A DNA stretch of 64,000 nt, from the NCBI RefSeq assembly GCF_000003605.2, contig NW_003105110.1:91776-155775 (forward strand), in the 5' to 3' direction. Numbering within the stretch: position 1 is the stretch's first letter; every line of letters begins with the position of its first letter. This DNA comes from Saccoglossus kowalevskii (Eukaryota > Hemichordata > Enteropneusta > Harrimaniidae). Shown in pieces: positions 5,836-62,069 of this stretch. A program made the translations under genes and the position numbers. The notes below the pieces were generated by a model, which worked only from the letters and a program-made list of their open reading frames with translations, had not been told where the DNA came from and made no database searches.

Positions 5836-6369
5836 TTGCTGACAGATTTACTAATGAGACAACAACTTGACATTAACATTCACACTTTAAGCTCATGTCT
5901 TATAATTTATTGCCGACAATGTGAATTTAGCATGTCGTCGGAAAACCACAAAGTCCTGAATGAGCTTTATGTGGTCTTATACCCCCCCTTTCCATTAATG
6001 ATAGAAGATGTTCTTGATTCTATTGACACCAGGGCATTGTTCAGATCAGAGTTCGGACTCTTGACTATTTACTCTTTGCACCAATGTCTGCTTTATGATA
6101 TGAATCTTTTCTCCAAAGACGTTCTCATTCCCAGAGTGTCTTTTTCATCACTGTTGATAAGTGGCCAGCTGGTTTCTTTTCTTTTCCCTTCTCTTTTTAT
6201 TCCTCTCTTTGGGAAAAAGGTTATACTACAAGCAAATGGAAGAGATTTCTCTAGTGCGCAGTCAGGAAAGCATTTTAGATTGAGCAAACTTGTCAGAAAT
6301 CTGGCAGTGTTCTATTTCAGTATTTGTATTTTCTCACTTAGAAGAACAAGTGTTCATCTCTTTGAATGA
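5836..6369 (+). CDS. Long open frame of unknown meaning, possibly not coding
   Basis: A 177-codon frame without a stop, starting at TTG; the first internal ATG is at about 5854. It is unusually long for DNA this AT-rich, where random frames rarely pass 90 codons. The translation has hydrophobic stretches but no motif, signal peptide or domain that I recognise. A shorter open frame on the other strand overlaps it (6093-6287). It ends where a pyrimidine/C-rich tract starts. It may be a decayed transposon ORF or chance. Confidence 0.15.
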   Translation: MLTDLLMRQQLDINIHTLSSCLIIYCRQCEFSMSSENHKVLNELYVVLYPPFPLMIEDVLDSIDTRALFRSEFGLLTIYSLHQCLLYDMNLFSKDVLIPRVSFSSLLISGQLVSFLFPSLFIPLFGKKVILQANGRDFSSAQSGKHFRLSKLVRNLAVFYFSICIFSLRRTSVHLFE

Positions 6370-6430
6370 AACCCCTCCCCCCAAATTTTGGTATATCATT
6401 TGTCAAATTTATATACACTTTTCTAAATTA

Positions 6431-6620
6431 TTAGTCCCCATTTCAGACAAAAGGGACTATTAATTTTGGTTCCATTCATCCCTGTTCCCAAAGCCATTTC
6501 CACACATTCTTTGACCAATCACATACAAACATTACAAAAAGACCTGGTATAATGACTTACATATGCGTGTCGATTTTACTTACCATTTGACCAAATACGG
6601 CTGACTGACAGTTATTTTGG
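6431..6620. repeat. Fragment of a hairpin-headed repeat (AGTCCC...GGGACT)
   Basis: The stretch opens with tagtcccc and, after a short loop, gggacta (6432-6459), so it can fold into a stem. The longer element at 33771-35000 opens with the same AGTCCCC...GGGGACT design. The rest of this copy is diverged and its 3' limit is unclear. Confidence 0.4.
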
Positions 6621-8158
6621 TCCTACATTTTTTAATATAAACAGAACAAATTTATTAAATTTTGTACCACGATTATGCATATTGGGTTATATGTGCGAGT
6701 CTTAATTTTTTTTGAGATTATGATCTGGTGGCCATTTTTTCACGTCAAGCCAATGCCTCTCATAGAAAGGGATATTCTTTTTGGATCAATTATTTGGATA
6801 TTCTAATTGGTCTACGGTGTGGATATTCTGTATCACCATGGCAACCTATTGTCTAAACATGATACTCCAACAAGTGGGTTTTCAAGAGGGGGAATTTACG
6901 GAGGATAAGTATTGTCCAAACACTAATGTCATTAATCTTACTTCAACAGTCACATCCTGTCCAAACAGTAGCTGTTGTTTTCATACAGTTCCTACTGCAT
7001 TGGTATTTGAATTGCTAATATGCAATCAATATCTGTCATACTTAAGCCCATCTCCAAGCATTAGCGATTTTACTAGCGCAATATGATAAATCATGGGAAA
7101 TGTCTTCCCATTTATGCCATTATCTGTGAAATGACAAAATTTATAGTTCTGTGGGATTACTCATGGCATCTGAGAAACTCATTTGAAGGCTAAGAGAACT
7201 ATCTCATCAGCAACCTGCTATAAGCTGCAATCATCCGGCTGCAATAAGAATTGATGAATGGACATTCTTTCTTTTACTAAACACATATTATCGGCTCCCC
7301 CATGGTGACCAGAACATGGTCTGTGGTCTGCATATCTGGTGTCAATATCTACCTGCCTCTATGGGCGGTATTAATATGTATAGAGGCACTATATTTTGTT
7401 TTAACGAACTAGACTGAAATTGCCCTGATAAGTATGAGACATGTTATTGCATCAGCAGCTCTCATTCCTTTGTAATCTTTTTCTTGTATTTTAAAAATGA
7501 ATATTTAACGACATAATTTATAAAAAATGTAACGACATAAAAAATTTAGTGGAACATTTGGCACATTTTTATGTATTTTTAGAAAAATTCAATTTTGGAT
7601 CTAAGAGACATGATTTTACAGATCTTGATCAAAATTAGTGAAAAAATAGAAAAGATTACGCTTGTTTATTTGTCGCAGATGACAAAAATTGACTTTGGCA
7701 CTTACAGGGTTAATGGTTCTTCAGTACACATGTATGTCTCCTCATCGGCTGATCTAAATGCATGATACATTCCCACATTAGCAGGATGTGCATTTCACCT
7801 GGCACTTAGTATGAGAGACGTATAATGAATCGCTGTAGTCGTCCACAAACACATGTAATCTTTCACTGTATTTGAAACTGTTTAACCTCACCTGTGAGGA
7901 GTTTTGTGCGCTAATACTGCATTACCATGGTTACTATGGTCTAATGAGATGGGAATGTACCGTAGTTTGTAATGTCTAGCGGTTCTAATCCGTGAATGTT
8001 TTAGTGGGTAGACATTTTGAAAGTGTCTAGACTGCAAATTTGACTTTGTACCACTTAGTGAGTCAACAAATGAGGCATGGGGGAGTTACCTAATTCGTTA
8101 GTGGCAATAGGAACATTGTAAGGTCAAATAAAATATCATTGCCTTCTCTAAAATATTT
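6621..8158. other. Non-coding stretch
   Basis: No gene seen. Two X-box/RFX-like palindromes occur, around 6832-6845 (atcaccatggcaac) and 7921-7934 (attaccatggttac). A lone piggyBac-like end reading CACTTACAGGG then TTAA lies at about 7697-7715; no matching other end was found. Confidence 0.45.
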
Positions 8159-8330
8159 AAAATCTGTATTAGAAGCCGCATCCCTAATAGAAGTCACACC
8201 CATTCTTTTTGAATAATTGAGAACCAAAAATTCATCATTTCTCATATGTGTAGATGCTCTATTAGAAGCCGCATCCCCTCTGTTGCATTGTACCATTTTA
8301 ATAGAAGCCGCGGTTTCTAATACAGATTTT
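8159..8330. mobile_element. MITE family B, copy 1
   Basis: The element starts with aaaatctgtattagaagc and ends with the approximate reverse complement ggtttctaatacagatttt. The motif atagaagccgc or ttagaagccgc recurs inside. A second, shorter copy is at 12742-12878. There is no coding capacity, so it would have been moved by an enzyme supplied elsewhere. I cannot assign the transposase superfamily from the ends. Confidence 0.7.
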
Positions 8331-10995
8331 ACAGTTTACATGAAAAAATGCAAAATCAAACTAGTTTTCAACAAGACTTAAATACAAATTTTTGTTCAGA
8401 GAAATAAATTAAAATCTTACCTGCATTACCTAATTTACATGTTATGGGAACCGCACATTCTTCTTGACAGTTTCAATCCCACAACCACTTGTTGTGAGTA
8501 ATGCCAGTGAAGAATATTTTAAAGTTCATATCATATGAATTCAAAAAAATGTTTTAAATTATTTGTGCAATAGTTTAATGTTAAAAAAATAGACAAAAAA
8601 GAAAATAGACAAAAAATGTCAGGTGTTGTCTTCGATTTTTGTATTCATACAGCATAAGCGATGCACCTTCTTCATTACAAATCAACCAACATATCGATTG
8701 CTACAACTCAATTTTACAAGGCCTGCAGGACTAACATATCATCAGCTATTTCAGTTGCTCTCTAAAACTTAACAAGTTTCACACTATCTTCGTTTTTTGA
8801 TATGAGCGTATAAATTGTAACGTGTTGTTTACATGGAGTATTGGGAGTGCTCACCAATTCAATTTGATATAGGTTTTGTGTGTGTTACATCATTCCTAGT
8901 GTTGAAATGATAGCATACAGACGACGTCTTTGCAAAATACAATCTGTACTATGATATTGAGACTTATCAGGTGATAAGGCAAGAGATTGAAAAACGTGTT
9001 GTGTCAGCGTTGTCCATTGTTCGCTTTAGCTATGAGAAACATAAAAATCTCAAAAGATAAAAATTTTGTTCACTAATTAAGTTTAGTTTAAATAGCATAT
9101 TGCTTTATTCATTAATTTGGTAAAAAAAACAAATGAAAAAACAAAATGACCTCAAGAGGGCACACAAAATTTATAGAGGGCACTGTTCCATATTACTCTA
9201 TTCTCGACAGGCACTGTTAATCACTCCTGTACTACTTGTGGGATGATTTAATAGCTTAAATATGGTTCTAGAATGCAATCCAATTCTCAATGACCGAGTT
9301 AAGCTGGAAAATGAAAACAAAAACATTTGACATTGAAATATTTTATAAGACTTTGTATTGTCAGAGCCACAGTGAAGTTACATTGTTTGATGCATCACTT
9401 TTATCATTCTTTTCAAATACTTTTTTTACCTGCTCACTAAAGCGACTTTTCTAGATGTAATAGTAAAACAACTGAAAAATGAAAATGATGTTACAGACAA
9501 AATTTTGTTACAGACGAAAACTGTTGCTTCAATCCAATATGGCAAACCATTACAGTAAATGTATGCCTCAAGAAATGTATGTGACAAATTTTACAAAAGT
9601 CACTATAAGCCTCAATCTAAAACCTATATATGTAGTGTATGTCTATTTTGTCAAAAATTGACAAAGAATTAATAGAAAAATTCATAAAATATTGAGAACA
9701 TCGCACTGAAATTTGCGCGAGTACCAGTTATATTTGTAATTTGAAAATAACTGTTTTGAAACTGATTAGGAATTCAAAATTGGTTTGCAAACATTTCAAA
9801 TTAAATTTGAATCTCACTTATAGATTGGTTTGCAGACCATAGTAAAAGTATAATTGGTTTATGGTAATTTGCATAATGTTTTACCTAATATTCCACATCA
9901 CAAGTCAGTGTGAATAATCATCATCATTTTCGTAACTATTATTTCTGATAACTAGTTATGTAATATTGCAGCCTAGAAAATTGAATTTACATGCGATAGT
10001 GGGTTTCTTGAGACCTGTATAAAATATGTAATGAAATCTGATTCAAAATCACTAAAAATTTTCCTGCTCGCTGAGTCATGTTGAAATTTCTTGAAGCAAA
10101 ATTCATATGAACGTATGGTTATCCCCTGAGGGATATGATATACTAAGAATATCAAATGTGTTTTATTAGCGTATTGTACACATTCGTACACCTCACTACC
10201 AAATTGAGGTTAGATTTTTAGATTATTTTCCCCGTCTTATTTATTTCATCATGTATTCTCAAATAGCAAGCAAACCGATTGACATTCAAGCGGTCCCTTG
10301 ATGCAAATAGCCCAATATTGGAATTTGTCTTGATTGAAATGAACTTTAATGCAATCAACCTTCTAAAAAAAAAAGTGCTAAGGAAACATCTCCAAGTTTT
10401 ACATGTGGAAATCCTTGTCTGTAATTATCATTATATAATTATTGTCTATGTTCAAACACTGGGAAACCATTATACAATAGAGGCGTGATAAATACTTCAT
10501 TTTTAAATTGATGTGAGTTTTTGAGGTGACCCCTTAATCTTGAAACCTACATAGTAATTATTATTATTACAGTTGTGATGAAACTTTGCTGGAATACAGG
10601 AAATTGATTTCTCAGCTTATTAGCTGTATTGTTAGCTAGCCTCTTAAAGAAGGATGTAGTTTTCCCCGTGCTGTGTTATAAAAATACTTGACCCAAATCA
10701 TAATCCTGAAATGAGTGACAGAGAGAGAGAAAACACTACTTGATTTGTGTGATTTTACCGAAAGATTAAAGATTACTGCAGAAGATTAAGCTAAGTGCAA
10801 TCGGAGTAGAATTTCGCACAGAAAGTCCTCTGCTTTCTATTTCATCAGTGCATCAGAACCTGGTTGGTTTATAAAATTTATGCTTTATTAATGGTTACAG
10901 TTGGCTAATTAGAATTCTGCACAGAAAGTCTGAAATGCTTGATCCATAACCACTGTGTGAGACCCTGACCCTGAAGGCTTGATAAAGCTACAATA
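8331..10995. other. Non-coding stretch
   Basis: I see nothing gene-like. It holds short open frames only, AT-rich sequence and A- or T-runs. Confidence 0.5.
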
Positions 10996-39938: not shown

Positions 39939-42889
39939 AAAATCTCTCATCAATTATGCAAAATATTTAAGTTTTATTTAATCTTATGGTATTAACATAG
40001 TTAAATTCCCATTTAGTATGTTTTGTTGTTGCTGTATGAAAGAATTAAGAATTGACAGAATTAAGAGCAGAAAACGATTTAGAGATTTCATTTATGTATA
40101 TTTTTGTATCAACAATTTTGGTGCTTTTATTGCATGCTATTAAGTGCACCACAGATAATAATAATGACAGTTCCGAAAATATAGCTGATAACAGAAGTTG
40201 ACTTTATCGCTGTGCTTAATGTCAGTATGTGGGTCTGAAACGATCAGCGTTCATATGCGACATGTGTGTGTAAAATTTTACAACAAAGGACGTATTGGCA
40301 GGTATTTTTTATTGTGATAGTATCAATCAGATGATTCCCGAGACGTATTCTGTCCACAAAATCCATCTACGAACACTGTGGTTTATTTATATTTATTGCA
40401 TTTTTTAGCGTTTGTTTCAGGATTATTTCCTACTTGCAAAATAATATTGAAGGCCATCAAAATTTGTGAAGGAATATTAAAAATTATTCCCTACAACCGT
40501 GACTGGCTATTTGAAACTCAAACGCTACTCAAACGAATTTTTTAACAATGAACCACAAGTGCATGAAATTGGCTTAACTATAAAAAAAAAAATTACATAG
40601 TAATTTCCATGGAAACAAAGTTCAGATACCTCGAAAGTTTATAGTTTATCTTTGTAATCTATTTCATGAAAGTTGTTAGACTGCAAAACATCAAGAATCT
40701 ATTTAGTTAACATAATGCTTAAATACAAAGTACATGTCGTTCTTAATAGATTTATAAACAACCGATTACAGTGACTGTATACCATGCAATTGTGTTGGTA
40801 AGATTTGGTCATCTTTATTTTATATGTTTAATATTTAAAAAAAAGAAAAATATTCTAAATCACAGATAACGTCGCTTTAAAATGGCTTGTATGACTGCAT
40901 GTGCAGTCAATTTTAATTGGCGTATTAGCGAGTCTGCGATTGTGTTTTGACAGAAATCCTGTCTGGTACACAAATTTTCATGAAAACACCTAGAAATGTC
41001 AGGTATGACATCAATAATGGATGTTTGAATTCAAATCATCAAAAATTACGAAAACAAAAATTATCAATAGAAAACTATATAGATGAAAACTGATATAAAG
41101 CTTAGTAGTTGACATTATTTCAAAGCAGCTAGTGTTGCATTTTGCATCAAAGTCACATGATTCAATATTCCTTGCCAAAAAATATTTTTGCTATGTTCAT
41201 AAAATATTTGTATGATGCCTTTTTTTACCCCATTCATTTTTGGCTATCCATGAAAGTTTTCAGCAGACAATATATTAGTCTGGCCATGTTAGTTTATAAT
41301 TATTGAATAAATGAACTAAAATTTTGCCTGGAAAATGTCTGCAGATGAAAGAAGCAGCCGACATACGATGATGATGTCAGAATTACATCATACTTGACAG
41401 ATGTTACATACAAAATAACCCTGGAGCGTATTACTGCGAAAACGAAGGTGTAAAATGTAGTTATTTTATTCTTGATTACATCAGTAAATTGTGTTATCAT
41501 TCTCATTACTTCATCATTGAGATGAAAAGACGATATGTGTAATATTCTCTCTCAAAATCATCTCAATCTGTCCCTGAAGACCGTTTTCAGTTTGTCATGG
41601 CGCAGTACGCCGTCTGTCCCGATTACTCACACGTTGATGCTTATTAGATTCCATTTTCCAATTTAATAATTGTTTGGTATCCTCCTTAATAAACCCAAAA
41701 ATAATGTTATTTTTCAAAACTTTTTTGCACCAGTGACTAATTTTTCAAACGGCAGTGAAAACTGCCCTTCTTGGCCCTGTGTATGCCATAATTTTTTCCT
41801 CCAAAATTAGGTACAACATTTTTCAGAATATTTTTAAAAATTAATTTTGATTCAAATATAATAATTTAGCATTGCCTACCAGTTTTAATCGATTTTTTTT
41901 TAAAAAAAGGAAAAAATTGATGCCGGTTTATATATTAAGTTAAACATTATTTATTGCTTCTAGAATTATATTCATGAATTTTTGAGAAGTCACATTTTTT
42001 ATATACAGTATAATAACTTGAATTTTTTGTAGTGGAATACAGAACCGTATTAAAAATTCAGTCTATTTTGTAAATGTAACCGGCATGTGAGGGCGCTATT
42101 GTGAGGAAGTTTCCTAAATCTAGTACATGTATTACTTCAGCATGTTATACTGATATTTTATGTATAAGTAAATTGCCATTATTTTTCCTGGTAAAATTTG
42201 GGTGTATTTTGTATATTTTCATGTATTTTTGTATTGTTTCTTCGTTAATTTTAGACCATTTGGACATGCATTGTAATTCCCCATTGCCTACAGGTCATAA
42301 AGGGGAATAAGAGTGTACCAAGATGGCCGCCAAAATTACCGGTAATATGCTAATCTGATCCAAGCAAGTTGCATCATGGCCTTGTGCTTTAGGAAATGAG
42401 CTAGTTTATACATTGTTTTGAGAACAAATGACAAATGACAATGTCTAAATGAACCATGAATATGTGCGCTAACAATTTCACTTGTCTGTTGAGTGCGTTT
42501 CATTTTCCCATATGGATGCTTTACGGTGAAATGGAAAACATGAAAAAAGGAGAAAAAAATATTAATCCCCTCAATGTTTTTCTAATCGATGGTGATATTA
42601 GCATAATGACATGCAAAAGTCAAGAATAGATGGACTCCTGTATATCACATCTGTACATTTGTTTCTGTCTCAAGTTCAATGTAATATTTTCAGCATTGTG
42701 TATATTCTCAGTAACACATAAAACTTGTAATTTCTCTCCCATAATGCATTGCACATAAGTCATGCAAAATTTGAAATTTGCCTCAACTTGAGAAAAAATT
42801 AGTTTTTCATATGTAATGTATATACTTACACTAAAATATTTAAGGGTGAACATTTCTTTTAAATTTGCTTTTTCTTTTTCTCGTTACAG
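39939..42889 (+). other. Intron or upstream sequence of the CSPG4-like gene
   Basis: No separate gene. The segment ends in a pyrimidine tract and acceptor (ctttttctttttctcgttacag) at 42889. A ZNF143-type motif (ctcccataatgcattgca) is at 42736-42753, about 140 bp before the exon. How much of the sequence to the left is intron is not known, since the first exon is unidentified. Confidence 0.6.
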
Positions 42890-44817
42890 CATCCTTCTAT
42901 GGAGCCAGTTACGTAAGCCTTCCGGTGAATGAAGTAAGCAGTGAAACAGAAATTCATCTCCGTTTTCGAACAAGTCGAACGAGGGGTCTACTGCTCCTCG
43001 CTGCCGGAGATACTGACTATTGCATAATTGAGCTTCGGTCTGGAAAGGTTCAAGTGTGGATGGACCTTGGTGCCGGAATTATTGGGATTGAGAGCACAAA
43101 GGGATTAAAACTGAACGATTTGCAGTGGCATACAGTGGACTTGCACAGAATTAACGAGAATGTTAATTTGACAATTGATGAAGTGCACACAGTCTCTGTT
43201 GTAGCATCTGGAGAGTTTTTTGAACTGAACATTGAGGAAGGTGTGTATATTGGGGGTCCTGGAAACCTAAAGAAAGATTATATAGGAGAATCAGAGAAAT
43301 ACTTCCGTGGATGTATCAGTGATGTTACGTTCAATTCAGTAGATTTGTACCAAACTGCAGAGGATTTGATGGAAAACGATTTCTTGAAACAGTACGCTGA
43401 GATAGAAGGTGTAACGTGGAACTGTAGTGCAGAGTTCGATGCATCACCCAATGATGCTGTGAGCTTCACTGAAGGATCTTCCTACTTGTCTTATGCAAAG
43501 TGGGAAGCGGAAGAAAAAGGATCTTTCTCTTGTTGGTTAAAAACTCACGCCGAGATCGGTCTCCTTTTGTATAGTGGTGGCGAAGGAGAAGACTATGCTG
43601 CAGTGGAAATTGTTGAGGGAAAAATTCATATGTTAATAAACAAGGGAATTGGACCAATCAGCTGCAGTCAGACATAAAGATTAATGATCGCAAGTGGCAC
43701 TGGATAATGCTACGTATTGAGGAGTCGTTTTTAGAAATCAGCGTTGATCGTAAACCCCAGATTTTGACTTTAGAAGATGGGGAAGGGCAGGTTTTGGAAT
43801 TGAGCGGACCTCTGTTTGTCGGAGGCGTGTTGCAACGAATTAGAAATATTGCATCACGGTTGGATCTGGCATCCCTGACTGGAGAACAAGATGATGTATC
43901 ATTCCAAGGTTGTATGCGAGATATTGAAATCAATGGGGTTGGTTTCAGCATACCGGATGCTCGAGCTACTAACCTGATCAAGCCTGGTTGTGTGTGGGAA
44001 TATCCATGTTCTAGGGAGCCGTGCATTCCTGAAGCTGAATGCCTGGAATCAGGATGGTCTGAATATGAATGTAAATGTAACATAGAAGTTTGTGAAAAAC
44101 CAATTGAAGACATAGCTATAATTGAGGAGACAAATATTTCTGAGATTACTGAGGAGAAGAAAGACAAGAAGAAAAAGGGAAAAGACAGTGGTAAATCAAA
44201 GAAGTTTCTTGTTTTGGGGACACTTGAGGTAGAGGAGGGTGGTGAAGCAGTGATCACTTCAGACCAAATAGAAGTGAATGTTGATTTAGACGAATTAGGA
44301 CTGAGAGAGTCGCAGGTTGTATTTCGTGTTGTTCGCAAACCCAGGTTTGGAGAACTTATTCATGATGTTTTGAGACGTGATAACAACGATGTCTTCACTC
44401 TTCTTGATGTGATTGGAGGAAGGATTATATACAGCCATGATGGAACCGAGAACTTCATTGACCGCATGACGTTCGAAGTTGACATTCTTGGGAATGATGG
44501 CGAGTTACCTACAGCCCTGCAAGAGGACAATAACTTTGTACTTAGAATTGAGATTCAAGCCGTTAATGATATTCCTGAATTTATCATGCCGCCAGGGAAT
44601 CTCTTTCAGCTAGTACTGAACACAAAACGTATGATTTCCACTGATATTCTGAATGCCAATGATCCTGATAATGACGTCGATGAGGTACAGTACTCCACGC
44701 TCAGTGACATCTCTGCAATGGGTTACATCGAAAATGTTGATAATCCCGGTCAAAGCATTAATACATTTACCCAGCAGGATATAAACATGGGGAAAATATT
44801 TTTTGTTCATGATGGCA
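42890..44817 (+). CDS. CSPG4: CSPG4-like exon: LamG1, LamG2, EGF-like segment, repeats 1-2
   Basis: Starts after the acceptor at 42889, in phase 1 (two bases finish a split codon). LamG1 spans about 42892-43425, with its Cys pair in FRGCISDV and TWNCSA. LamG2 spans about 43440-43985, ending FQGCMRDIEING and GCVW. A Cys-rich EGF-like segment follows (44008-44100: six further Cys including ECKCN), then a Lys-rich linker (KKDKKKKGKD) at about 44155. CSPG repeat 1 (FTLLDVIGGRIIYSHDG) and the first half of repeat 2 close the segment. The frame fails at TAA 43675-43677. LamG2 resumes in the next frame from 43653, as if one base after the GG at 43651-43652 had been lost. Confidence 0.93.
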
Positions 44818-47800
44818 NNNNNNNNNNNNNNNNNNNNNNNNNNNNNNNNNNNNNNNNNNNNNNNNNNAACTCGCCAGAACAGGATTGGCAATCCAGTATG
44901 AAGTATTAACGTCCCCAAAGTATGGTGAAATACAGCGAATGTATTCCGACCATTGGCGATCCATTACCGAATTTTCACAGCGGCAGCTTGAAAAAGACAA
45001 AATTCGGTTCGCACCCCTGTATGATTCTGAACATCTCAAAGATAGTTTCCAGCTGCAAGCAACATGCATGGATGTGAGCACAGATCCTTTTGAAGTTATG
45101 ATTGACGTCATCGCTGTCCACATAAAAGTTGCGAATAACACCCCCCTGCTTATGGACATAATCAAAGAGAAGACCCTAACTCAGCAGCACTTAGGGTCGG
45201 TAGTTGTAAACGCCGTCCAAAACAATTTTACAATAACATACTCAATAACAAAATTACCCGAACATGGAAACCTAGTGCGACATTCTGTTCGCCATCTAGA
45301 ACTTCACGACCAATTCACACAGGATGACATAAACAAAGGACATATTGGTTTTCGTATCAAACATCACATTCGCAAACACGTCAATGATACTTTTGAGTTT
45401 CATGTTTCAACCACAGGATATCAATCAAGTATTTTCACATTCCATGTGATGTACATTCCTGATAAACTGAGTACGACAGTAGTTAACACTGGGATTGAAG
45501 TGAAAGAAGGTACAAATAAGGTTATTTCGTCTGAAGATCTGTCAATTACCCATCCATTAGCTGATGATTTCCGTTACACTGTAATGACCTCCCCGCAACA
45601 CGGGAGTCTCCGGTTGATAAATCCAGTCACTCAAGAAGTGGTCGAGATGGGGATCACAGCATTCAGTAATAACGACATAGTATCTGGCAGACTAGTGTAT
45701 CACCATGACAACTCAGAGAGTGTGAAAGATGCTTTCCAATTCACTGCTATGGCAATTAGTAATGAACCTGAACTTGACGATCCTAAAGATACTACGGTTG
45801 TAGAAACTTTTAATATTACCGTGCAGTTAGTAAACGACAACAAGCCACATAGAGTGATTGATAAAGTATTCAAGGTGGTGATGAACAGTGAAAAGGCACT
45901 GACAGGAAATGATCTGAAGTACGCTGATGGTGACATCGATTTCCCTGATAACCGATTGCAGTACAGTCGGCAGATGATCCCAAATGGACAGTTAGTAAAC
46001 GTCAATAATGTGTCCTTGCCTGTATACCATTTCACACAAGCGGACTTAGATACAGGAAAGTTGTTATTCAAACACTCTGGTGCACCATTTGGCAGGATGG
46101 TCTTTTACGTGTACGATCAAGACAGAGCTAAATACTCATCAGGACTTCTCGTGATTGAAGCATCAGATCCGTATATCAGAGTTGTAGATAACACTGGACT
46201 AATCGTTCAGAAAGGTCGTGGGGTCATCATCATGCCAGCTAACTTGACTGTTGAAACAAACCTGAACGCCAGGGATAAAAGCATTGAATTCTACATCACA
46301 GAGCCTCCCAAACATGGGATGTTGTCTAAAAAGGGAGAGGACGGAAATGTGGTCAGTTTTAATCTTGAAGCTTTGAAAAATGGTCGCATTCGCTACCAGC
46401 ATGATGATAGTGACATCTTAGAAGATGGATTTAACTTCACGGTTAAGGTTAAAGATGTCGAAACTACTGGTTATGTATCAATAAGAATCTACTTAAAGAG
46501 CCACCAGAGTCCTCCTGATGTTGCACAATTACGACCGCTGGTTGTCAAAGAAGGTAGTGTTGGCACAATCAAGAAGGCAAATTTGCGTGTCGTCCATAAG
46601 GACAGTATTCCTAATGATATTGTGTTCCACATAAGAATGCAACCAAAACATGGTTTCCTGCGGCTTTTGACTGCAGAAAGCGTCAGAAAACTTAACATTG
46701 ATGAAGACATTGAAGGCCTCACAAGTGAGGAGGTTGAGACCACTACAATAATGGAAGATGAAGCAGACTACTTAGCTGACGTGGAAGTGGAAACTGAATT
46801 CATAACAACATTCACACAGACGCAGATTGATCAAGGACGAGTGCAGTATGTTGAAATGGAACCTGGACAAGCCGCTGATCGGTTTATCTTTGATGTCACC
46901 AACGGCATTCTGACTGTACCTGATCAGGTCTTCAAGATTGACATTATCCCAGATGTCATTCCTTTGCGAGTAAGGAATATTGAAGTTCGTGAGGGGAGCA
47001 GCAGAGCGCTAACCGAAAAATACATCAAAGTTACGAGTAAATACATGAAGGATCAGGTGATTAATTTCATCATTACCAGTGAGCCAATGAGAGGTAGAAT
47101 TGAGAACAGCCGTGCACCTGGCATCCCTCTGATGCAGTTTACTAGCGAAGACGTCCTAGACGAGTTTATTTACTATGTTCATGATGACAGCGACACTTTA
47201 ACCGATCAGTTCAGTTTTATTGCGAACTCTACTAGCACTAAGAAACTGAGCAGCGTTCATTCAATCAATGTGACTGTATCACCGGTGAACGATGAACCAC
47301 CAGACATTGTGATCAATAATGGAATGGAAGTGTTTATTGGTGCTGTTACCATAGTTACAACAGAGGATATGAGTGCCGAGGATAAAGATACTGAAGATAG
47401 TCAGATTGTGTTTTCTCTACTAACACCTCCAACCAATGGTTTTATGGCCAAGAAACTGAACACCAACAAGGCCATTACCAACTTTACCCAGGATGATATA
47501 GTGAATCACAGAATTGTCTTTGTACATAACGGTAATTCATAGTTTTAATAATTCATAATTCATAGCTTTCCTATGTATTTTAACATTTTAAGCACCCAAA
47601 TCAAAATGTTGAAAAATACAAGTGTTATACCAAAAAAATACTTATGCTCAAAGGGCTTTATCAGATTTTGAAAAAGCCCCCAAAAAAATAAATTTTACAA
47701 AGCCTCATATTCAAATTAAAAACGTCATCTTGCTTTGAAGGCATATCTCTTGACATTTTCTGGTTTTTCATGTTAAAATTTTATATTTTTCTTAAACGGG

Positions 47801-50800
47801 AGAACTAACATGTAATGCAATTACTTGGTTTTTTTTTACGGTTGATCATTCGGTTAGTCACTCAGTTACAGATTGTTTATTCCAAGTACATGATTTCTGC
47901 TTTAACTTGAATGTTAATTTTTATGCAAATTAACCAAATTGGGATATTGATTTTGAGAAAACGTATGATAAAAGCCATTAAAATTTACTTGGGTGTTGAC
48001 TTGAAAGTCATGATTAGGAACTTGAACTGGGAGTTTTTGTAAATGTATGCTTCAAACACCACCATTAAATTATTTTCACGCAATGCAATGCATACCAAAC
48101 TTTAGTGTTTAGGAAATTGTTCCCATTAATTTCAGAATTATTTCCAAAAATGTAGGAAAAAAGTGAGAATGTACACTTTACACACATCAATATAAAAACA
48201 ATTAATATTTTTTTTAAATTTTAATTTCTTTTTTGTGTTTTTTATCTTGTAGGTGCTCGAACTGGTGGCTTTCGCTTTCAAGTCAACGATGGACAGCATT
48301 CTGCTAAGCGACAGATTTTCAGTATTACTGCTAAACCGCTGGTGTTATCAATTGGTGCCAATTTAGGAATTGATGTTTACCCTGATTCTGTACAGCCAAT
48401 CACACCTCAGCATCTAAAAATAACTACCAATGAGGAGCCAGAGAAGACTTCAAATAAGAGCATCATATTTAGGGTTGACCTGAAGCCAGAACTTGGTGAA
48501 CTTGTCAGGATACCACATCCAGATAGCGTGCCCGATACTTATCATGCTTTGCATGAGTTTACGCAGGATGACATCAACAAAGGAAAGGTCGGATACAAAC
48601 ACGAACAGACATCAAGTAAATGGACTGAAAGAGACCGATTTGTCTTTGATGTGTTCCACCCACTCGCACAAAATATCACTGGTCAGTTGTTCCTTATAAC
48701 GATATCTTATGAAAACATTGGAGGAAGTATACGAAGTCCACTACTTGCAAATACTGGTGTTGAGGTGACGGAAGGGAATGCCGTGATCATCACCAGTAAG
48801 CAGTTGGATGCATCAAATCTTTACGCTAAAGTCGATGGACAATCTGACAACTATATTATTGAATACAATATTACAAAACTTCCTACGCATGGTATTCTTG
48901 TTGTCAATGGCAACAATGTAACAGAACCATTCATCATCTTCATTCAAGATGATTTGGCTAAGAAGCGTGTCCATTACCTCCATGATCATTCTGATACCCT
49001 CCAAGACTCCTTTTGGTTCAATGTTGCTCTTGGGAGGAAAGACTCCTTGTCGACAGACGCAGACAAGATTCAAGCGGCTGATGATGCTTATAGTGATGTT
49101 GCTAATCTTGGCGATACTTTCAACATTACGATTGTCCCAGTCAATGACCAATTATTTTCCGTTGTGACATCCGCCCCTGGTATGGATGTGGTGCAAGGAT
49201 TCAATAAAGTCATCACCAAGAAGCATCTGGAGACGATAGATCCAGATACAGGCCCAGATGGTATTCTGTATGCAATTATTCGTGGTCCTTCCAATGGACG
49301 AATTGCATTGACTCGCAATCACAGTGTTGATGTACATGAATTCACACAGGAACAGATCAATAATGGTGATTTGATTTTCATCCACAACGGAGCCAAAGAA
49401 CATGGTTCTTTTTCGTTCAGCGTCAGCGATGGAGTTCATAAAAAGCAATACAAACTTTTCAAATTGAACATCACACCTCTCTCCCTGATACTGATTAACA
49501 ATACCGGCGTGGAACTGTTACAAGGTGATTTGTATGCCCCAATCACGCGAAACCAACTCGGTGCAGGAACCAATGGCAACCGAAATGGCATAATGTACAA
49601 TATCACAAGCCAGCCACGCTTTGGAATGTTACTAGTGAATGAGCAGCCTCAGACAACCTTCTCTCAAATTGACATTGACGAAGAACAATTAGCGTACATA
49701 CAAACTGATAGATCAGCATCAGAAGACGAGTTCCAGTTTGTTGTCTACAACTCTAAGAACATACTTGCAGCTAACGTATTCAAGGTGACTGCAAAAGCTA
49801 TTATTAAAAAGTCGCACATCTCGGTACGAGCCGGAAGTAGTTCCACTATAACTGTTGCTGAACTTGATGCTACAGAACTGGCTAACCGAACTCTAAGTAA
49901 CCCAAATTACAATATTGTTGAATTTCCGCAACATTGTCAGATCCTTAACTCATCAACGTCGCAATCCATCTCGCATTTCAGTCACAATGACATCATCAGC
50001 AAAAAGGTCATTATCTCAGCCGACCCTATTGAAATGGGGAATTCTACGAAGCATGTTGCAGACTTACTTGTCCTGTCACTCCATGCAAAGAATGTTCAAC
50101 CAGCACTGGTTGATGTTCCCATTGTTCTTAAGCCTATAAAAACCAAGAAAACAATGGCTAGTGAAGAAAGCAGTCCAACTACTGGCACAATTGGAGTTCT
50201 TCATCCGAACATCGTGTCTGACCTGCATCCTGATCCTGATGATACTGAGGAAGATACTAATGAAATTAACATCATGGCGGATGGTGGCCGAAATCCAACA
50301 AAGAACCCAGATGGGTCTGGCAGTGTCGGTAACAACTCTTTGGCCAATAATGAACCAGGTTCTAGTCTGGTTAATCAGGAACCTGTGTCTGGTGGCCAGT
50401 TAGCTGTCATAATACCCATTATTGTTCTTCTAGTGTTAGCAACCGTTGTTGTCATTGTCATCATTTGGAGAATGAGACGAAGAGACAAGCCAAAGAACGA
50501 TGACTCCCCGTACCCCGAACCAGATGAGGGCCCACTCCCTGTAGTTCATCCACAAAGAGTTGCTCTACAGGGGTCTCCGGGGCAGAGCTCAGCCAGTACT
50601 GGTTTCTCCAGCATGCCACCGCCTATGCCACCAGCGATTTCTCCAGTTCTCAGTCCTGGAATGCCAGAACGCAGTCCAATGGTACCACAGGTTACGGTTA
50701 CACCGCTGGGGAAACCAACAGGGATGGAAGACCCAAGGTTTGCTCTCAACTACCCAGCCATGCCAGCTGGTCCATCAGGCCAATCGGTGATCAGTTTAAC

Positions 50801-50912
50801 ATCAAGTGGTAGTGGGACAATGGTGTATAATTGGCAGAATACTGATCCAGAGATGCAAGAACATTGTAGATCAACTAATCCGAGTCTGAAGAAAAACCAG
50901 TATTGGGTGTAA
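42890..50912 (+). CDS. CSPG4: CSPG4/NG2-like transmembrane chondroitin sulfate proteoglycan (lacks identified first exon)
   Basis: A large type I membrane proteoglycan of the CSPG4/NG2 (kon-tiki/perdido) family, expected at the cell surface and in matrix adhesion and signalling. The order is laminin-G, laminin-G, a Cys-rich segment, 15 CSPG repeats, a transmembrane helix and a cytoplasmic tail, as in vertebrate CSPG4. The start SFYGASYVSLPV aligns with the mature vertebrate N terminus, so only the signal-peptide exon is missing. The end NPSLKKNQYWV matches the vertebrate C terminus and PDZ ligand. Coding segments are 42890-44817, 44868-47531 and 48253-50912, about 2,410 codons plus a gap; the human protein has 2,322 residues. 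An apparent 1-base deletion near 43652 and an N gap at 44818-44867 break the frame; both look technical. The 721-bp intron is GT-AG and in phase 1. Confidence 0.95.
44818..44867. other. Assembly gap (50 N placeholder) inside the CSPG4-like gene
   Basis: It falls between the VHDG of CSPG repeat 2 and the middle of repeat 3. Compared with vertebrate CSPG4, roughly 50-60 residues are missing, so the true gap must be longer than 50 bases and may include an intron. Confidence 0.95.
44868..47531 (+). CDS. CSPG4: CSPG4-like exon: CSPG repeats 3 (part) to 10 (part)
   Basis: Open for about 887 codons, with the first complete codon at 44870. Repeats are recognisable by the recurring pattern of a V-x-E/K-G start, an H-G-x-L turn, F-T-Q-D-D-I, and Y-x-H-D. 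Examples are FTQDDINKGHIGF, VNTGIEVKEGTNKVI, YHHDNSES and VNDEPPDIVINNGMEV. Many N-x-S/T sequons suggest an extracellular position. Repeat 8 carries a Glu/Asp/Thr-rich insert (about 46695-46800) not present in vertebrate CSPG4. The exon ends at 47531 before GTAATT, inside repeat 10 just after FVHNG. Confidence 0.95.
47532..48252 (+). other. CSPG4-like intron (721 bp, phase 1)
   Basis: Donor GTAATT at 47532, acceptor tttttatcttgtag ending 48252. Joining G (47531) to GT (48253) restores a Gly codon and the repeat 10 sequence HNGARTGGFRF. No other feature inside. Confidence 0.93.
48253..50912 (+). CDS. CSPG4: CSPG4-like last exon: repeats 10-15, transmembrane helix, cytoplasmic tail
   Basis: 885 codons then TAA. 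It completes repeat 10 and holds repeats 11-15, ending near ELDATELANRT, which matches vertebrate repeat 15. An acidic spacer (DPDDTEEDTNEIN) with an SG dipeptide in NPDGSGSVG is a possible glycosaminoglycan site. The transmembrane helix lies at about 50398-50466, in AVIIPIIVLLVLATVVVIV. It is followed by stop-transfer RMRRRDK and a tail of about 140 residues rich in Pro, Ser and Met. The last residues DPEMQEHCRSTNPSLKKNQY and then WV resemble human CSPG4 closely. QYWV is the PDZ ligand that binds syntenin, GRIP and MUPP1 in vertebrates. The tail is about twice the human length. Confidence 0.96.
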
Positions 50913-55153: not shown

Positions 55154-55350
55154 TACTGTAGAATACTTTATTTTAGCTGGAATTAATTTTCGCTGAAAAT
55201 ACCTTTTGGGCATTTTGTATGGAATTTATTTTCACTGATTTTTGATGAATGGATGTGAAATATAGGGAAAAAAGTATATATTTGCTGGATTATATTTTCA
55301 CTGAATCATTCCTTCAGTGAAAATAGTGAAAATAAAGTATTCTCCAGTAT
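55154..55350 (+). mobile_element. MITE family A, copy 4
   Basis: 197 bp. TACTGTAGAATACTTTATTT at the left, AATAAAGTATTCTCCAGTA at the right, TA at both borders. Same orientation as the copy at 10996. Confidence 0.85.
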
Positions 55351-56754
55351 TCAGTTTAATGAATTAATACTACAGCTAACCAATCGGTATCCCTGTTACA
55401 AACATTTTGTGTTTTAGTAAAGCGCTCTCAGATTCCTTGGTGAATACAGTTTAGCTCCTGAAAATTTGTCATTAAAATTAGAAACTAGTGCTCTGCTTGT
55501 GAATGTTGCAGGAGCCATCTATTGGCACTGTCGTACCACAGTTTTGCAAACTTTAATTAAACATGCTATGGTGGTGAGGTGATGACTGAATAAATTGACC
55601 TTGGCTGAGGAAGATTATTGAAGTTGTTGTACATAAGATTCTTTAGACCCCCACCCCATCCCACCCCCAAATTTCCACTGCTGTTTATCATTTTGTAGTG
55701 AGTATAAGCTGAATCTGATTTAACCCACCTGTGTGTGTGTGGGGGGGGGGGGTGAATCACTGCATTTGAACTACAGAATTTTGAATGGCAAGTCAAACAT
55801 TTTCGCTAATGCTCATGTGACATTACCCTGTAAAATATTCATAATTGTTTACGATAGAACAGTTTCACTGAACACAACGAAACCTTATTCTCAATTTAAA
55901 TAACTCAATAAAGTTTTGAATATATTAATAATTATGAGTACATGTAATCATTTCATCAAGGATCCACTTTTGAGCATGTGTGAATGTTTTAATGGTAATT
56001 TATATAAAAAAAAATTGGAAAGCCCCATCCTTCGTCCTAACATTAAATTCCAAAAAAGTTGTAATTAGGAGAAGTCCTTCAGATAAGCACATCACCCCTG
56101 AATCTTTGCGTGTTTCTCTCAATCTTTACCGAATTTAAATATATTCAGAATGCTTCAAATTAAATATTTGTGAATAGCACTAGTATTAGGCATGTACTAT
56201 ATAGTTTGGCACAGAATATTAAATTGTAAAAGATTCATTTTCAAGTTATCAGAAAGTTACGTTAGGTCAAAAGTTACATTGATTGCATATTACCTATGAT
56301 GTTTATCCACTAATTGGGTAAATGGTGCTGGATTGTCATTTAGCAAATTGGTGTCTTTCAAAACTAAATTATTTACTCAACTTATATAAGAGTTTGACCG
56401 GATTTTTGCAAGTTTTCGAGAGTACGAGATCATTTTTATCACAAGTTAGTAGTAGGCTTGTAGCTTGTCCCAAAGATTAATCTTTGATATTCATGGATGG
56501 TTTTTGAGGGTGTTGTCAGTTGCAGATGTACGGTTGCCATGGAAATGCCAATATCAACAAATGCCAAAAATACTTAAAATATGATTTTTTTGCCACTGCT
56601 TCATTGCTACCCATCTACAATAGAGCATATCTGAACAAATGATTGACTGTTTATGTTTTTTATTTCACCCAGATGACCATTTGTCACTTGATCCGTGCAT
56701 TACAGCATTAGATATTCATATTTTTAACTGAAGGAGGAGTTCAACTATAATCAG
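55351..56754. other. Non-coding stretch
   Basis: A (GT)n run joined to a G-run is at about 55729-55753, and a C-rich tract at about 55650-55668. An RFX-like motif is at about 56532. No gene recognised. Confidence 0.45.
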
Positions 56755-59700
56755 ATGGCACTTGGTTCTGCTGAAGAACAATCAAATGTTCCAGTGAATT
56801 CTGAAAGTTTGCTTCATTCCGTTATTGGTGTGCTCAGGCAAGAAATAGCAGAGATTGAAAAACCAACTGAATACTTCACTGCTGCTGGAATCGGCTTGAA
56901 AACATCCCAAAAATTAGTACCAGAGCTTTTACAGAAGGCTTTCTTTTGGTTGCTCAGCAAAGATGCATTTTAATCTGGTGATTCAAAATACCAGCCATCA
57001 CAGAAAGTACAAAGAAGAGTCTTAATTCTTGCGGAAAGTGTTATTCATAGCAGTATAATAACCCCTCTTCATTTAGGACTTGCAGCTCAATTGCATCATG
57101 ATCATGGAAAAGAGACACTCTCCATGCCCATGGTTTCAGCAAAAGCTATGATAGCCTTTGATGCTTTTTAACAGCACTGGGAAAAGATGAACTATAAATT
57201 TTTTTTTTTTTTTTATTATTAGACGCATAAAATCCTTAGAAAAGGATAAAAAGGGTCTTACAGAAAGAAATTACAAAAAAAAAAACACAAAAAACTACAA
57301 TCTAAAAAAGAAAACAAAAAATAAAAACTTTTCTAAAAAAAAAACAAGTCAAAAACAAGTCAAAAACAAAAAAATACAATTTGCAGCCAATGGTGAATAC
57401 AGAATATAGAATGAACACAAAATGTGGCCTAATACACTGATAGTTGTTGCTGTTTTGTTCCATAGCTGTTTTTTAAGAAGACAGCTAAGGCTGGTGCTAG
57501 AGTATGGTTTGCCATAATCAAAATGAATTTATTCTGACTATTTTCTTTATCAAAATTTGGAATTTTATTTTGTGCAGTCAGGAATAATTTGTCCCTATGG
57601 TGACTGTAAGCTGGACATTTATACAAAATGTGCTCATCCTCAACTATATTTTGGCTGCACATATCACATGTTCTTTTATCCAGCCGCACATTATTATGTC
57701 TGCCTTTCTCAATTTTAAGGTCATGGTTGCTTGTCCTGAATTTTGCAATTAACCTTCTAAGACCATGGTTCTGCATATTAATTAGGTAATTTTCAATTTT
57801 TAAATCTTGTTTGAAAAGTCTGTATGTTCTTAGTTTGTTTTTAGCCAAGGTTAGTTTTCTATTATCATTATGCATGTCTAAGATCCATTGGTTCTCAAAT
57901 GATTTGTTTATTTTTTTATGAATAAAGTCTAAATTTTTCTTAATTATTTTTTCACTTGAGTTTACAATGGTGACAACATCTAAATCTTGCATGAGGGTTT
58001 CTACACTTGTAAACCATTTACTTTTTACATTCTTGTTTACTAAGTAGGCTTCTCTTAGTAATGTGTTATCAGAGTTTGTTACTCGGTTGAAATATTTAAG
58101 TTGTTGTTTCTTGATAAAACAGTCAATGGGGTACCTTCCTAGCTCACCATAAACAGCCATTTTTGGTGTGAATTTTGAGAGACCAAGGATGAACCGACAA
58201 AATGAAAGATGGACATCCTCAATTGCAGACTTAGTTGTGCTTTCATCACCCCAAACATCACTACCATATACAATAATTGGTCTTATCAGTTTGTCAAATA
58301 AAGATAGTTGGAGGGGTATGTTTAGTGAGTTGTCATAACCGAGTTATATATGCAACATCGCATATATATACCACGTGGCTTAGTCCCACAGCAACATGGA
58401 GGAAAGCTTATTCAAGAAGGTGATGACAATATTGACATCAACTGTGCTACAATTGATGGCAAGGGAACAATTTGTGTTGTATTTCAGGAACAAACAATTG
58501 ATAGAGATGTCTCTTGCCTGGAAGACAAAGTGAAGATTGGCAAAGAGAAGTCACTGTCTCTTGACTGTGATGATGCGAAGGCACTGAAAAATGTAATGCA
58601 TTATGACAAACCCAGGAAACAACCAGAGCCTCGTAGGCGTGATGATGCAAAGGGCAAGGTAAAATCACTTCATATTGCTGAGTCAGACATACAGGCAGCA
58701 GATCTTTCTTGGATGTTTCTCAGAACAGTTTCACATGGAAGACTTTCTGTTCCCTCAAGTATTGACTACAGTACATCACAAATAGTGCCTATCTGGACTG
58801 GATATAATGCATTGATGTCTGAAAGAGACTCACTCGCAGACACGGCCAGACATAGGAATGATCCATGTATTGAGTCAGTCAGCCACATCTATTCCTACAT
58901 CTGTTTAACGAGGATGGTGCAATGAGAAAAACACAAAATTGACACATATATTAAGGAATAAGGTAGAGGTTGGTCCAATTCCAGCAACCACTGATCATAC
59001 AAGCTGTGTCTACATAAGAGGTGCAATGGCTGAACTACAGTCAATGACAGGTGGCATCAACACATTTGGTGACCATGCTAGCAGATATATGAATCAGTTG
59101 TTGAATTGCATACAGAAAAGAACCACTGTAATAGACGTGTTTGATCAATATGAATATAAAAACTCAATCAAAGTAGAGGAACGGAGCAGAAGGTTAGCAA
59201 CAACAGGTGAAGCAAAGCAATATCAGGTGATGGCTGGACGCCCACTTCCACCATGGCCAAAGTTTATGGCACTCTCATCAAATAAAGCTGCATTGACTGA
59301 CTTCCTGTGCAAGTACATAACTGAATATGCACCAAGAACACCAGAACTAGCTGTACACCAAGAACCAAGGAATCTTGCAGGTGGGTTTAGTGATGGGGGG
59401 AAAACTGTTTGTATCTCTAGTCAAGATGTAACACCAGTGGAGAATTTCTTCTGTTCGCACAAGGAGGCTGATACAAGTATGATGTTTCATGCTATGAAGG
59501 CAGATGAAGAATTTTCTGCTGCCAATATCCAAGGAAGCATTGTCGTGAAGTCAGCTGACACAGATGTCCTAGTGATCGCTGTACACTATTATACTCAGAT
59601 GCAAAGTACATCGTCTTTCTGGATAGAAACAGGAAAAGTTACTGCATTGCAAATCTCCATTGCCACATGCTGTTCACAACATATGCAATAAATTGGGCCC

Positions 59701-60342
59701 TATGGTTCCTAGTCTGCTTCCTGCCATGCATGTCTTGACGGGATATGATACCGTCTCATCATTATGTGGAATAGGAAAAAAGAAAATGTGGAAAACTTTT
59801 GAGTCATTGGAGAAAAAAGGTTCAATTCCATTCCGTGGTAATTTGGGTACCAGTGACACAGTACAAGCCAAACACGCAGCCAGGCAGTTTGTTGCTGCTC
59901 TATATGATCCAAAGGTGGTGTATAAAGTAAAACATGGTAACTTAAATCTTCTGAGAGTGCGTCTGGCTGACAAAAATGTGTCATTGCATGAACTACCACC
60001 ATCAGAACCTAGCTTTCATCAACACCTCAAGAGAGCGTCATTTCAGACCAGAATTTGGATGCTGGCATGTTGGCAAACCAGATGTGTCTTCACCAGATGG
60101 AAATGGGTGGCAAAGAGAGGGTGGTGAATTGAAGGTGAAGTTATTTGATAGCCCAACATCTGCAGAAATATTAGATGATCTTCTGTGCTCACGCCGTGGA
60201 TGATTCAAGACAATGTAGTAACATTTGCAATTGTGCAAAGAATAGTATGCCATGTACAGACGAATGCATCTGCAAGGCGGCAGATGGATGTATGAATAAA
60301 CACACCCATCATGAGCCAATGCTAGATGAGGTTGATGAATAA
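56755..60342 (+). pseudogene. Decayed copy of a multicopy protein family with FEN1/XPG-like (PIN) nuclease motifs and a Cys-rich tail
   Basis: N-terminal part (56755-57198) has in-frame stops at 56971 and 57169. A retrotransposon then interrupts it (57199-58341). The rest (58342-60342) crosses at least four frames. Motifs in order: DDNIDIN with TIDGKGT (about 58420-58460), DVFDQYEYKNSIK (59133-), CSHKEADTSM (59455-), SADTDVLVIA (59551-), MHVLTGYDTVSS (59726-), GIGKKK (59768-), SSPDGNGW (about 60090) and a tail CSNICNCAKNSMPCTDECIC (60214-). The order VFD / EAD / D-x-D / TGYD / GIGKK parallels the XPG-N, XPG-I and helix-hairpin motifs of FEN1. Many uncharacterised invertebrate and fish proteins share this layout. 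Function unknown; a mobile-element origin is plausible. This copy cannot encode a full protein. Confidence 0.75.
57199..58341 (-). mobile_element. 5'-truncated non-LTR retrotransposon (ORF2 C-terminal part)
   Basis: Minus strand. The 5' end starts inside the reverse-transcriptase ORF with LFDKLIRPIIVYGSDVWG, continuous with an open frame 57429-58160 that begins MAVYGELGRYPI. The C-terminal region has KFRTSNHDLKIEKGRHNN and a zinc-knuckle-like C-x2-C...H...C (CDMCSQNIVEDEHILYKC). An A-tail is visible as the T-run at 57199-57214 on the + strand. 5' truncation plus a 3' A-tail is the usual outcome of target-primed reverse transcription. The type fits CR1/L2-like elements but the clade is not certain. 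Target duplication is not obvious. It lies inside the PIN-like pseudogene, so it inserted later. Confidence 0.85.
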
Positions 60343-60504
60343 CCAAATTATAGTATTATCTTTTATATAGTTAGTTAGTTATTATGGTGATCCTCCACTA
60401 ACATGTATGAGGTTTTGTAATATAAAGATAGTCCAGACTTTGGATAGAAAGATTCTTTTAAGTAATGAGGTGACTGACAAATTAGTAGATTTTGTATTAT
60501 GTGT
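60343..60504. other. Short spacer
   Basis: Spacer between the pseudogene stop and the second retrotransposon tail; nothing recognised. Confidence 0.4.
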
Positions 60505-61200
60505 CTTAATTTTTGTATAATAATAATACAGTTTTATTACACCATAATGAGATTACAAATTCATTTTTGGCTAAAAGTAATAAAAGGTAAGGTAAAAAGG
60601 TAAGTAAAAAACAAAACGTTAAAATAACTTAAGATTAGGTAGTGAAAAATTAATGTAGTTTGTGTTTTTCAAAACACACTTTTAGATACCGTGTCACATG
60701 TCTAATTAGTTTAGGATGGTTAGTATTAATAAGAATAATAAACTTGTTGATATTGTTTTCAGACTGAAAAGTGGGGATTTCCTTTGTAAATTGAGCATAC
60801 ATAATATCACAAATCCTGTTCTCTATGGGATTTTAGGTCTTTTATGTCTGCCTACTTCTATTTTGAGTTTGTGACAACTAAGTCTCAATTGAGAAAGTAA
60901 TTAAATATCTTGTCTATTATTTAACAGTAGGCATTTAGCTGGACTAATATCACTTTTAAGTAACTGTAAGATCTGAGTTTGGCATCAGGCCTCTTGATAT
61001 TATTAATCCACATGTTAGTATAATGGTTTTTAGTTTTCTGGTAGAGTACATACATTATTAGAAACAGTCAGGAGATCAATAATATGCAGGTCTTCCAACT
61101 ATAGCAGTTGTTTTCAAGTTCTTTGACTGCATGGGAGTTAAAATTAATTGAACCATTGTTTTTAATGTTTTGGTAGTTTAATACATGACAGCTTGAATTT
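60505..61200 (-). mobile_element. Second, more decayed non-LTR retrotransposon tail
   Basis: On the minus strand broken frames read RPDAKLRSYSYLK, then LRLSCHKLKIEVGRHKRPKI, then FIILINTNHPKLIRHVTRYL and CFEKHKLH. The block LRLSxHxLxIExGRH matches the corresponding block of the element at 57199-58341 and is typical of non-LTR ORF2 C-termini. Stops and deletions are present, including loss of the zinc-knuckle. The left (3') end has an ataataata run. Borders are approximate. Confidence 0.7.
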
Positions 61201-61411: not shown

Positions 61412-61469
61412 ATCCCAGGCGCTGGAGGTTGTAATGTTCCGCTCGCCCGGTAGGATAATGCTACACAAA
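61412..61469 (+). repeat. Left arm of an inverted duplication (about 55 bp)
   Basis: The arm with gcgctggaggttgtaatg and cccggtaggataatgctaca is repeated in inverse orientation at 62012-62069, with three substitutions in about 50 bp. On the + strand it could encode MFRSPGRIMLHK, then a frame reaching a GTGAGT donor after ATCGGAA at about 61495. It is either a duplicated first-exon start or an inverted-repeat end. Confidence 0.75.
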
Positions 61470-61800
61470 CAACACTCCAGTCTGACTGCTATCGGAAGTG
61501 AGTGCGCCGTTTATAAAATAGATGTAGCGCTGATTGTGTATTGTATTATTTAGTAATTTAGTGATTGTATTTGTTATTTAGTATATTGTGTTTTTGTTTT
61601 GTTTTTTATATATATATTTCTCCTTGTACTTTGTGACCATTTTCTTTCCCTCCGGGGATTGTGTAAGTGTCAATAAGTAAATAAATAAATAAGTGTGACG
61701 CAAGTGTCAATCAAACGCCCACTCTATTTATAGCTAATGTCGTAAATAAAACAAAATCACCTGACTGGCGCCATTTTCAGTTCATCAAAAGATCTGTTTT

Positions 61801-62043
61801 TTAGCTCCATGGTTCATGCCATTGTTCAATGTATTTCTTGCACTTCTCAGCCTGGTCGATTTGTCGCTTAAGATGAACTGACAGTGTGGCACTCTTCCTG
61901 ATTGAACTCAGTCCTGTTAATTTGGCGAGGCGATCAGCGTACGTAACTCCCGTTTTCGGTTGCTTAAAAAGATTAATGCACGATTTTAACTGGCCATGCG
62001 ATCTTAGTTTGTGTAGCATTATCCTACCGGGCAGGCGGAACAT
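61801..62043 (-). CDS. Small unassigned protein, 80 codons, possible mitochondrial presequence
   Basis: Starts MFRLPGRIMLHKLRSHGQLK, which is basic and amphipathic with no acidic residue in the first 45 positions, as in a mitochondrial targeting peptide. The frame ends in QAEKCKKYIEQWHEPWS and TAA. GC content is visibly higher than in the neighbourhood and the residue mix is protein-like. An in-frame upstream extension to 62085 exists (MTVWLFVPQALEIV) but lacks an ATG-initiated context as good as that at 62043. The first 13 codons lie in an inverted duplication with 61412-61469. I do not recognise the family. It could be a small host gene, a retrocopy, or one exon. Confidence 0.4.
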   Translation of the reverse strand: MFRLPGRIMLHKLRSHGQLKSCINLFKQPKTGVTYADRLAKLTGLSSIRKSATLSVHLKRQIDQAEKCKKYIEQWHEPWS

Positions 62044-62069
62044 TACAATCTCCAGCGCTTGGGGCACGA
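62012..62069 (-). repeat. Right arm of the inverted duplication
   Basis: Complement of 61412-61469. The two arms are about 540 bp apart and overlap the start of the 80-codon minus-strand frame. Confidence 0.75.

Follow-up and report, generated by a model that had tools for sequence, protein, structure and literature searches.

Academ transposons and the locus under study

Academ proteins carry an XPG nuclease together with a Cys8 finger as their hallmark. According to PMC10045372, target duplications are 3 or 4 bp long in AcademX and 9 or 10 bp long in AcademH, lengths that are tied to the nuclease and the helicase, respectively. Academ elements have been amplified in bivalves, where the curated ones average 5,565 bp (PMC10294476). 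The sequence considered here lies in a stretch of 64,000 nucleotides of Saccoglossus kowalevskii DNA (the window), for which an earlier note had described an uncharacterised multicopy protein family that reads like a FEN1/XPG-type nuclease. We consider it quite probable that the copy in the window is a decayed autonomous TIR DNA transposon, most likely of an AcademX family. Its relatives likely make up a new AcademX family and no new kind of system, an assignment made by anatomy and published descriptions. The term 'uncharacterised' was half right, as the anatomy of the family fits a transposon group that has already been described.

Layout and decay of the window copy

The remnant and its parts are given below, with the evidence for each in brackets.

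56476..60518, plus strand: transposon remnant, matching positions 737-5902 of the related locus L009 (blastn blocks of 86-92% identity)
56476..56732, plus strand: 5' part of the element, preceding the coding part (blastn against L009)
56755..57198, plus strand: core coding remnant upstream of DDNIDIN, with in-frame stops (frames and L009 match)
57199..58345, minus strand: inserted retrotransposon-like 3' fragment, not the transposon's own (T-run at its left end; no L009 counterpart)
58350..58838, plus strand: coding remnant with DDNIDIN and IDGKGT (L009 match)
58993..60049, plus strand: FEN1/XPG-like region, from VFDQY..SIK to GIGKKK (motifs; family profile set against archaeal FEN1)
60175..60342, plus strand: Cys-rich CXC-like tail and stop codon (motif spacing)

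The closest relative of the window copy is L009, on contig C3323. The blocks that match it are collinear (56476-56732, 56726-57094, 57145-57198, 58350-58838, 59005-59935 and 60157-60518; blastn, 86-92% DNA identity), and over 2,377 aligned bases the two copies have diverged by 0.074 substitutions per site. Both L009 termini (664-736 and 5903-6511) are missing from the window copy, as are L009 997-2420, which encodes zinc-finger-like units and is lost after 56732, and L009 3356-4600, lost after 58838. The stretch 56755..60342 does not form a single gene body: it is split by the unrelated minus-strand insert and lacks these two segments of L009. Within the insert, a minus-strand ORF at 57429-58160 has a translation that resembles the terminal part of a non-LTR retrotransposon, and this ORF has no significant Pfam match. 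Two weak translated matches to the insert (37-46% identity, opposite orientation) lie at 60728-60900, perhaps a second old fragment adjoining the transposon's 3' break.

All of the motifs named in the earlier note can be found on the plus strand and in the order given there, spread over three frames:

58422-58442, plus strand: DDNIDIN, in the same frame as IDGKGT
58452-58469, plus strand: IDGKGT, in the same frame as DDNIDIN
59137-59172, plus strand: VFDQY..SIK, second frame
59458-59475, plus strand: HKEADT, second frame
59552-59569, plus strand: SADTDV, second frame
59738-59752, plus strand: TGYDT, third frame
59768-59785, plus strand: GIGKKK, third frame
60214-60272, plus strand: Cys tail from first to last Cys, second frame again

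The FEN1/XPG-like region of the window has its frame broken between SADTDV and TGYDT. The Cys tail shows the pattern described for it, with a spacing of C-x3-C-x-C-x6-C-x3-C-x-C and hence x6 rather than x7 in the middle. Two terminal motifs were sought in the window and neither occurred above chance, because the copy is truncated. The window copy had been called dead, and it is indeed past mobility, having lost both ends, two internal segments and its reading frame, and it holds a retrotransposon fragment inside.

Relatives in the genome

The genome searched has 4,830 contigs that total 572 Mb. The 250-aa open frame of the window, used as query, yielded 32 matches in 26 loci, and with the relative L015 as query, 109 matches fell into 89 loci; one further locus was matched by the window query only. 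Counts of this kind are lower bounds. The family therefore occupies at least 90 loci in its own genome, which bears out the description of it as multicopy. These matching loci and the invariant EADTR, DTDV, GCDT and GK columns of a five-copy alignment (A2) place the motif set far beyond chance. Another alignment (A1) was too diverged for search patterns. Most relatives are just 30-40% identical at the protein level in the L015-query search.

Twenty-three loci (L009-L031) were read, in stretches of up to 10 kb each, and none of these 23 copies is intact. The longest family frame has 546 residues (L025); longer open frames were set aside as N runs, which are open in all six frames together. Four queries found no relatives in a viral collection and one query found none in a collection of prokaryote genomes, so the collections searched indicate no viral or prokaryotic source. 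Several repeats were noted in or beside the copies read. In L031, positions 1-2957 and 7035-9999 form a 99.1% identical direct repeat of 3 kb, which gives a short contig two copies of the 3' half of a family member and is either a recent duplication or an assembly artefact. Tandem arrays with periods, by self-match offsets, of ~76 bp (L009, 8583-9440) and ~58 bp (L028, 7569-8930) lie beside family members. A dispersed repeat of ~170 bp in the window (55154-55324) has counterparts of 78-86% identity in L010, L015 and L020.

Transposon ends and target duplications

Two origins had been proposed for the family, a mobile-element enzyme and an amplified host nuclease, and the terminal repeats and target duplications that can set these apart were sought around the copies. 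DNA comparison shows that the units of a subfamily are homologous end to end, that several subfamilies have inverted repeats at their ends, and that homology inside subfamilies stops at those termini. The termini start with TAG, for example TAGGCCTGCAGATTA, TAGTGCTGCAGC, TAGTCTAGTGG and TAGGCGAGCGG, and AAG takes the place of TAG at one end of L014 and one end of L017. Terminal inverted repeats are present in 9/9 elements with both ends, a set picked for recognisable ends, and the two ends of an element agree at 12-17 of their first 20 bases. L010, L012, L015, L019, L020, L024, L025, L026, L027, L028, L030 and L031 are without a terminal repeat as fetched; these loci may be truncated copies, or the fetched stretch may be too short.

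Directly outside the TAG termini, perfect 3-bp flanks occur in four of the nine elements (L009, TTA; L016, TAA; L023, AAT; L018, ATA), 2 of 3 bases match in another four (L013, L014, L021 and L022), and none matches in L017. When the boundaries were shifted, giving 169 register pairs, the TAG register came out best with 4 perfect flanks and 20/27 matching bases, against a mean over all 169 of 0.24 perfect flanks and 7.2 bases. Perfect duplications of 2, 4, 5, 6, 8, 9 or 10 bp were seen in 0/9 elements. L009 is complete with both ends, running from 664 to 6511 (5,848 bp) between its TTA flanks. The full element is some 5-6 kb long and makes AT-rich 3-bp target duplications.

These ends bear directly on the host-gene origin, by which a host nuclease gene family would have grown by gene duplication or retrocopying with no transposon involved. 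The window copy and L009 have no common terminal repeat inside the stretch that they share, and the 30-40% protein identity of most relatives would be compatible with an old gene family. Such an origin is nonetheless contradicted by the terminal inverted repeats and 3-bp target duplications of relatives, L009 among them, by the stop of subfamily homology at the termini, and by the presence of a separate FEN1 exon in the genome, and we regard it as extremely unlikely. The mobile-element origin has both features in its favour.

Protein architecture

With no intact copy among the 23, the architecture of the one protein had to be pieced together from several loci. Judged from L009 (about 1545 to 5703), the full protein is estimated at 1,300-1,400 residues. 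The parts follow one another in relatives as two zinc-finger-like units, a long core, the FEN-like region and the Cys tail. Each of the two units has the form C-x2-C...H-x3-C; in the first L015 frame, the Cys pairs fall at positions 29/32 and 131/134, and the H/C pairs at 81/84 and 182/185. Their columns are conserved in 6/6, 6/6, 7/7, 7/7, 7/8, 9/9, 7/7 and 6/7 copies, counts that, like those for the core, leave out L029 as a near-duplicate of L015.

In the core, the DN-x-D column has D in 13/13, N in 13/13 and D in 12/13 copies; the D of '..D...Y..A' is found in 13/14, the H of G-x-F-H in 10/10, and the D and E of D-x-x-x-E in 16/16 and 15/15. The core is a candidate DDE transposase, as its conserved D, D and D/E columns follow one another in a plausible order; known DDE cores gave no profile or fold match. 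DDNIDIN and IDGKGT had been described as a conserved N-terminal region; conserved they are, and they are better taken as a piece of this second, larger core, which lies behind the two zinc-finger-like units.

The Cys-rich tail, read earlier as metal-binding, is weakly similar to the Tesmin/TSO1-like CXC domain of Pfam (TCR), with which it shares its Cys spacing. Weak matches to TCR were obtained in 3/10 pieces, each from a relative (E 0.056, 0.4 and 3.7), all three under the curated cut-off of 23.5 bits, and the window tail was unmatched. Across Pfam scans of 20 family protein pieces, in two sets, none scored over its cut-off, so a profile built from these copies would be useful.

Resemblance to FEN1/XPG nucleases

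Sequence comparison indicates that the C-terminal region is probably FEN1/XPG-like. The five acidic motifs of FEN1 all have counterparts in the family, in the same order and with the first acid included. The FEN1 pattern opens with an acidic strand (hydrophobics, then D-x-x-A), which the earlier note had overlooked and which is present in the family. Eleven copies extend to the position of the first acid after the hydrophobic strand; by eye, eight of them have D and two (L020 and L026) have E. The window copy has G and so differs from FEN1/XPG nucleases in being without this acid. The later motifs are VFD-x-Y followed by SIK and R..R, E-A-D-T-R, D-T-D-V, and G-C-D-T followed by G-x-GK, so that the basic S-I-K..R..R after the second motif and the G-x-GK after the last are shared with FEN1/XPG nucleases as well. 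The acid columns of the family read E 19/19, D 18/19, D 19/22, D 21/22 and D 19/19. Of the six archaeal FEN1 sequences in the set, 1rxv and L040 have the same spacing from G-x-D to the hairpin as the family, and the other four have one residue more. The family differs from FEN1/XPG nucleases in adding the Cys tail and in placing the region within a larger transposon protein.

Profile comparison can be used to weigh this likeness. In hhalign, a query-anchored alignment of the XPG region with 24 rows, set against these six archaeal sequences, gave a score of 31.05 with an E-value of 0.0023, but an hhalign probability of 12.5%. Column shuffles of this alignment (n=300) had a mean of 12.9 and a maximum of 22.9, and none reached 31.05; the reversed alignment scored 12.2. 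Four other segments of the family protein scored 11.4, 14.2, 18.9 and 19.7 against FEN1, the segment at 18.9 being the tail segment, which overlaps the hairpin. A confident local alignment of 77 columns spans the last part, and at a low threshold the earlier motifs fall into register too. An earlier hhalign test with 15 rows scored 23.7-23.8 (E 0.02-0.03), a level that was reached by 0/300 column shuffles but by 11/300 ten-column block shuffles. Clear separation from shuffles was thus obtained only with the 24-row alignment, and there against column shuffles.

Plain sequence searches recovered no relative among FEN1 proteins. Pfam, XPG_I included, returned no match for the family. Against PDB, phmmer was blank and a profile search returned one irrelevant match (E 0.48). 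An HMM of the six FEN1 sequences, run with hmmsearch over 1,642 ORFs, did not single out the family: the 873 ORFs reported include 28 of its 39 from the XPG region, with a best rank of 6 and an E-value of 3.3. AlphaFold2 was given the window protein as a single sequence, with one frame slip bridged, and returned a model with a mean pLDDT of 32.3, too poor for use. Another exon of the same genome, apart from the FEN1 exon, reads by eye like XPG. Motif order, hairpin spacing and profile score support the original FEN1/XPG reading, and the plain-sequence searches of Pfam, PDB and the FEN1 HMM give it no match.

The blank plain HMM and Pfam searches, the hhalign probability of 12.5% and the block shuffles that matched the score of the smaller alignment could all be accounted for if the likeness were accidental, the C-terminal part of the transposase having a different fold in which D-x-D and G-x-D motifs occur by coincidence. 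Chance of this kind would have to produce five motifs ordered as in FEN1, a hairpin spacing close to that of FEN1 and acids as constant as E 19/19, D 18/19, D 21/22 and D 19/19. It would also have to explain why 0/300 column shuffles reach the 24-row score and why other segments score 11-20. We consider an accidental likeness rather unlikely, and the FEN1/XPG-like reading of the region is kept below.

Class assignment and proposed mechanism

The family has terminal inverted repeats, 3-bp duplications and the size of AcademX elements. Its 3-bp duplications fall within the 3 or 4 bp of AcademX (PMC10045372), its predicted nuclease would correspond to the one that AcademX is described there as encoding, and its ~5-6 kb compares with the 5,565 bp that curated bivalve Academ elements average (PMC10294476). 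Size, candidate nuclease and 3-bp duplications together fit AcademX as described in the literature. Where the window copy departs from AcademX is in being dead and without ends.

A competing assignment is to the AcademH (helicase) lineage, or to some other DDE superfamily that gained a FEN-like nuclease independently. AcademH belongs to the same superfamily as AcademX and, according to the title of a published paper, occurs in animals, and since Academ was assigned by description, another superfamily is possible. The features expected of AcademH are absent from the data: the family pieces scanned by Pfam contain no helicase family, and duplications of 9 or 10 bp, the AcademH lengths in PMC10045372, are perfect in 0/9 family elements. 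This assignment is unlikely in our judgement, and AcademX remains the preferred one.

For an AcademX element of this anatomy, a division of labour can be proposed. The DDE core would make the transfer cuts and joins, while the zinc-binding modules would bring the FEN/XPG-like part to the element ends. There the FEN/XPG-like part may remove or trim the 5' strand that is not transferred, or the flap that strand transfer leaves behind. A nuclease that trims 5' overhangs would be expected to yield shorter duplications than a helicase-based relative, in line with the contrast published in PMC10045372, and such 5'-strand trimming could be why the duplications of the family are a mere 3 bp. Alternatively, the FEN/XPG-like region could itself be the strand-cutting enzyme, with the core serving DNA binding or assembly only, flap-nuclease chemistry at work in place of DDE chemistry and the 3-bp duplication as its footprint; we hold this to be very unlikely.

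With the AcademX assignment, a 'hypothetical nuclease family' becomes a likely named kind of transposon, and this should help to avoid the annotation of its copies as host genes. It also raises a question that can be tested: what is the role of a flap-nuclease-like domain in a transposon protein, and does it set the short target duplication?

Other features of the window

Downstream of the remnant, at 61414-62063, the two 57-nt arms of an inverted repeat, with 93% complementarity, are separated by 536 nt. The pair resembles a short non-autonomous element, and no clear target duplication was apparent by eye. Upstream, a large multi-ORF gene on the plus strand (42865-50912) encodes laminin G domains and many Cadherin_3 repeats according to Pfam; we take it to be CSPG4-like. 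On the minus strand, 36646-36753 matches U6 spliceosomal RNA over the full model length with 64.8 bits, and may be a gene or a pseudogene.
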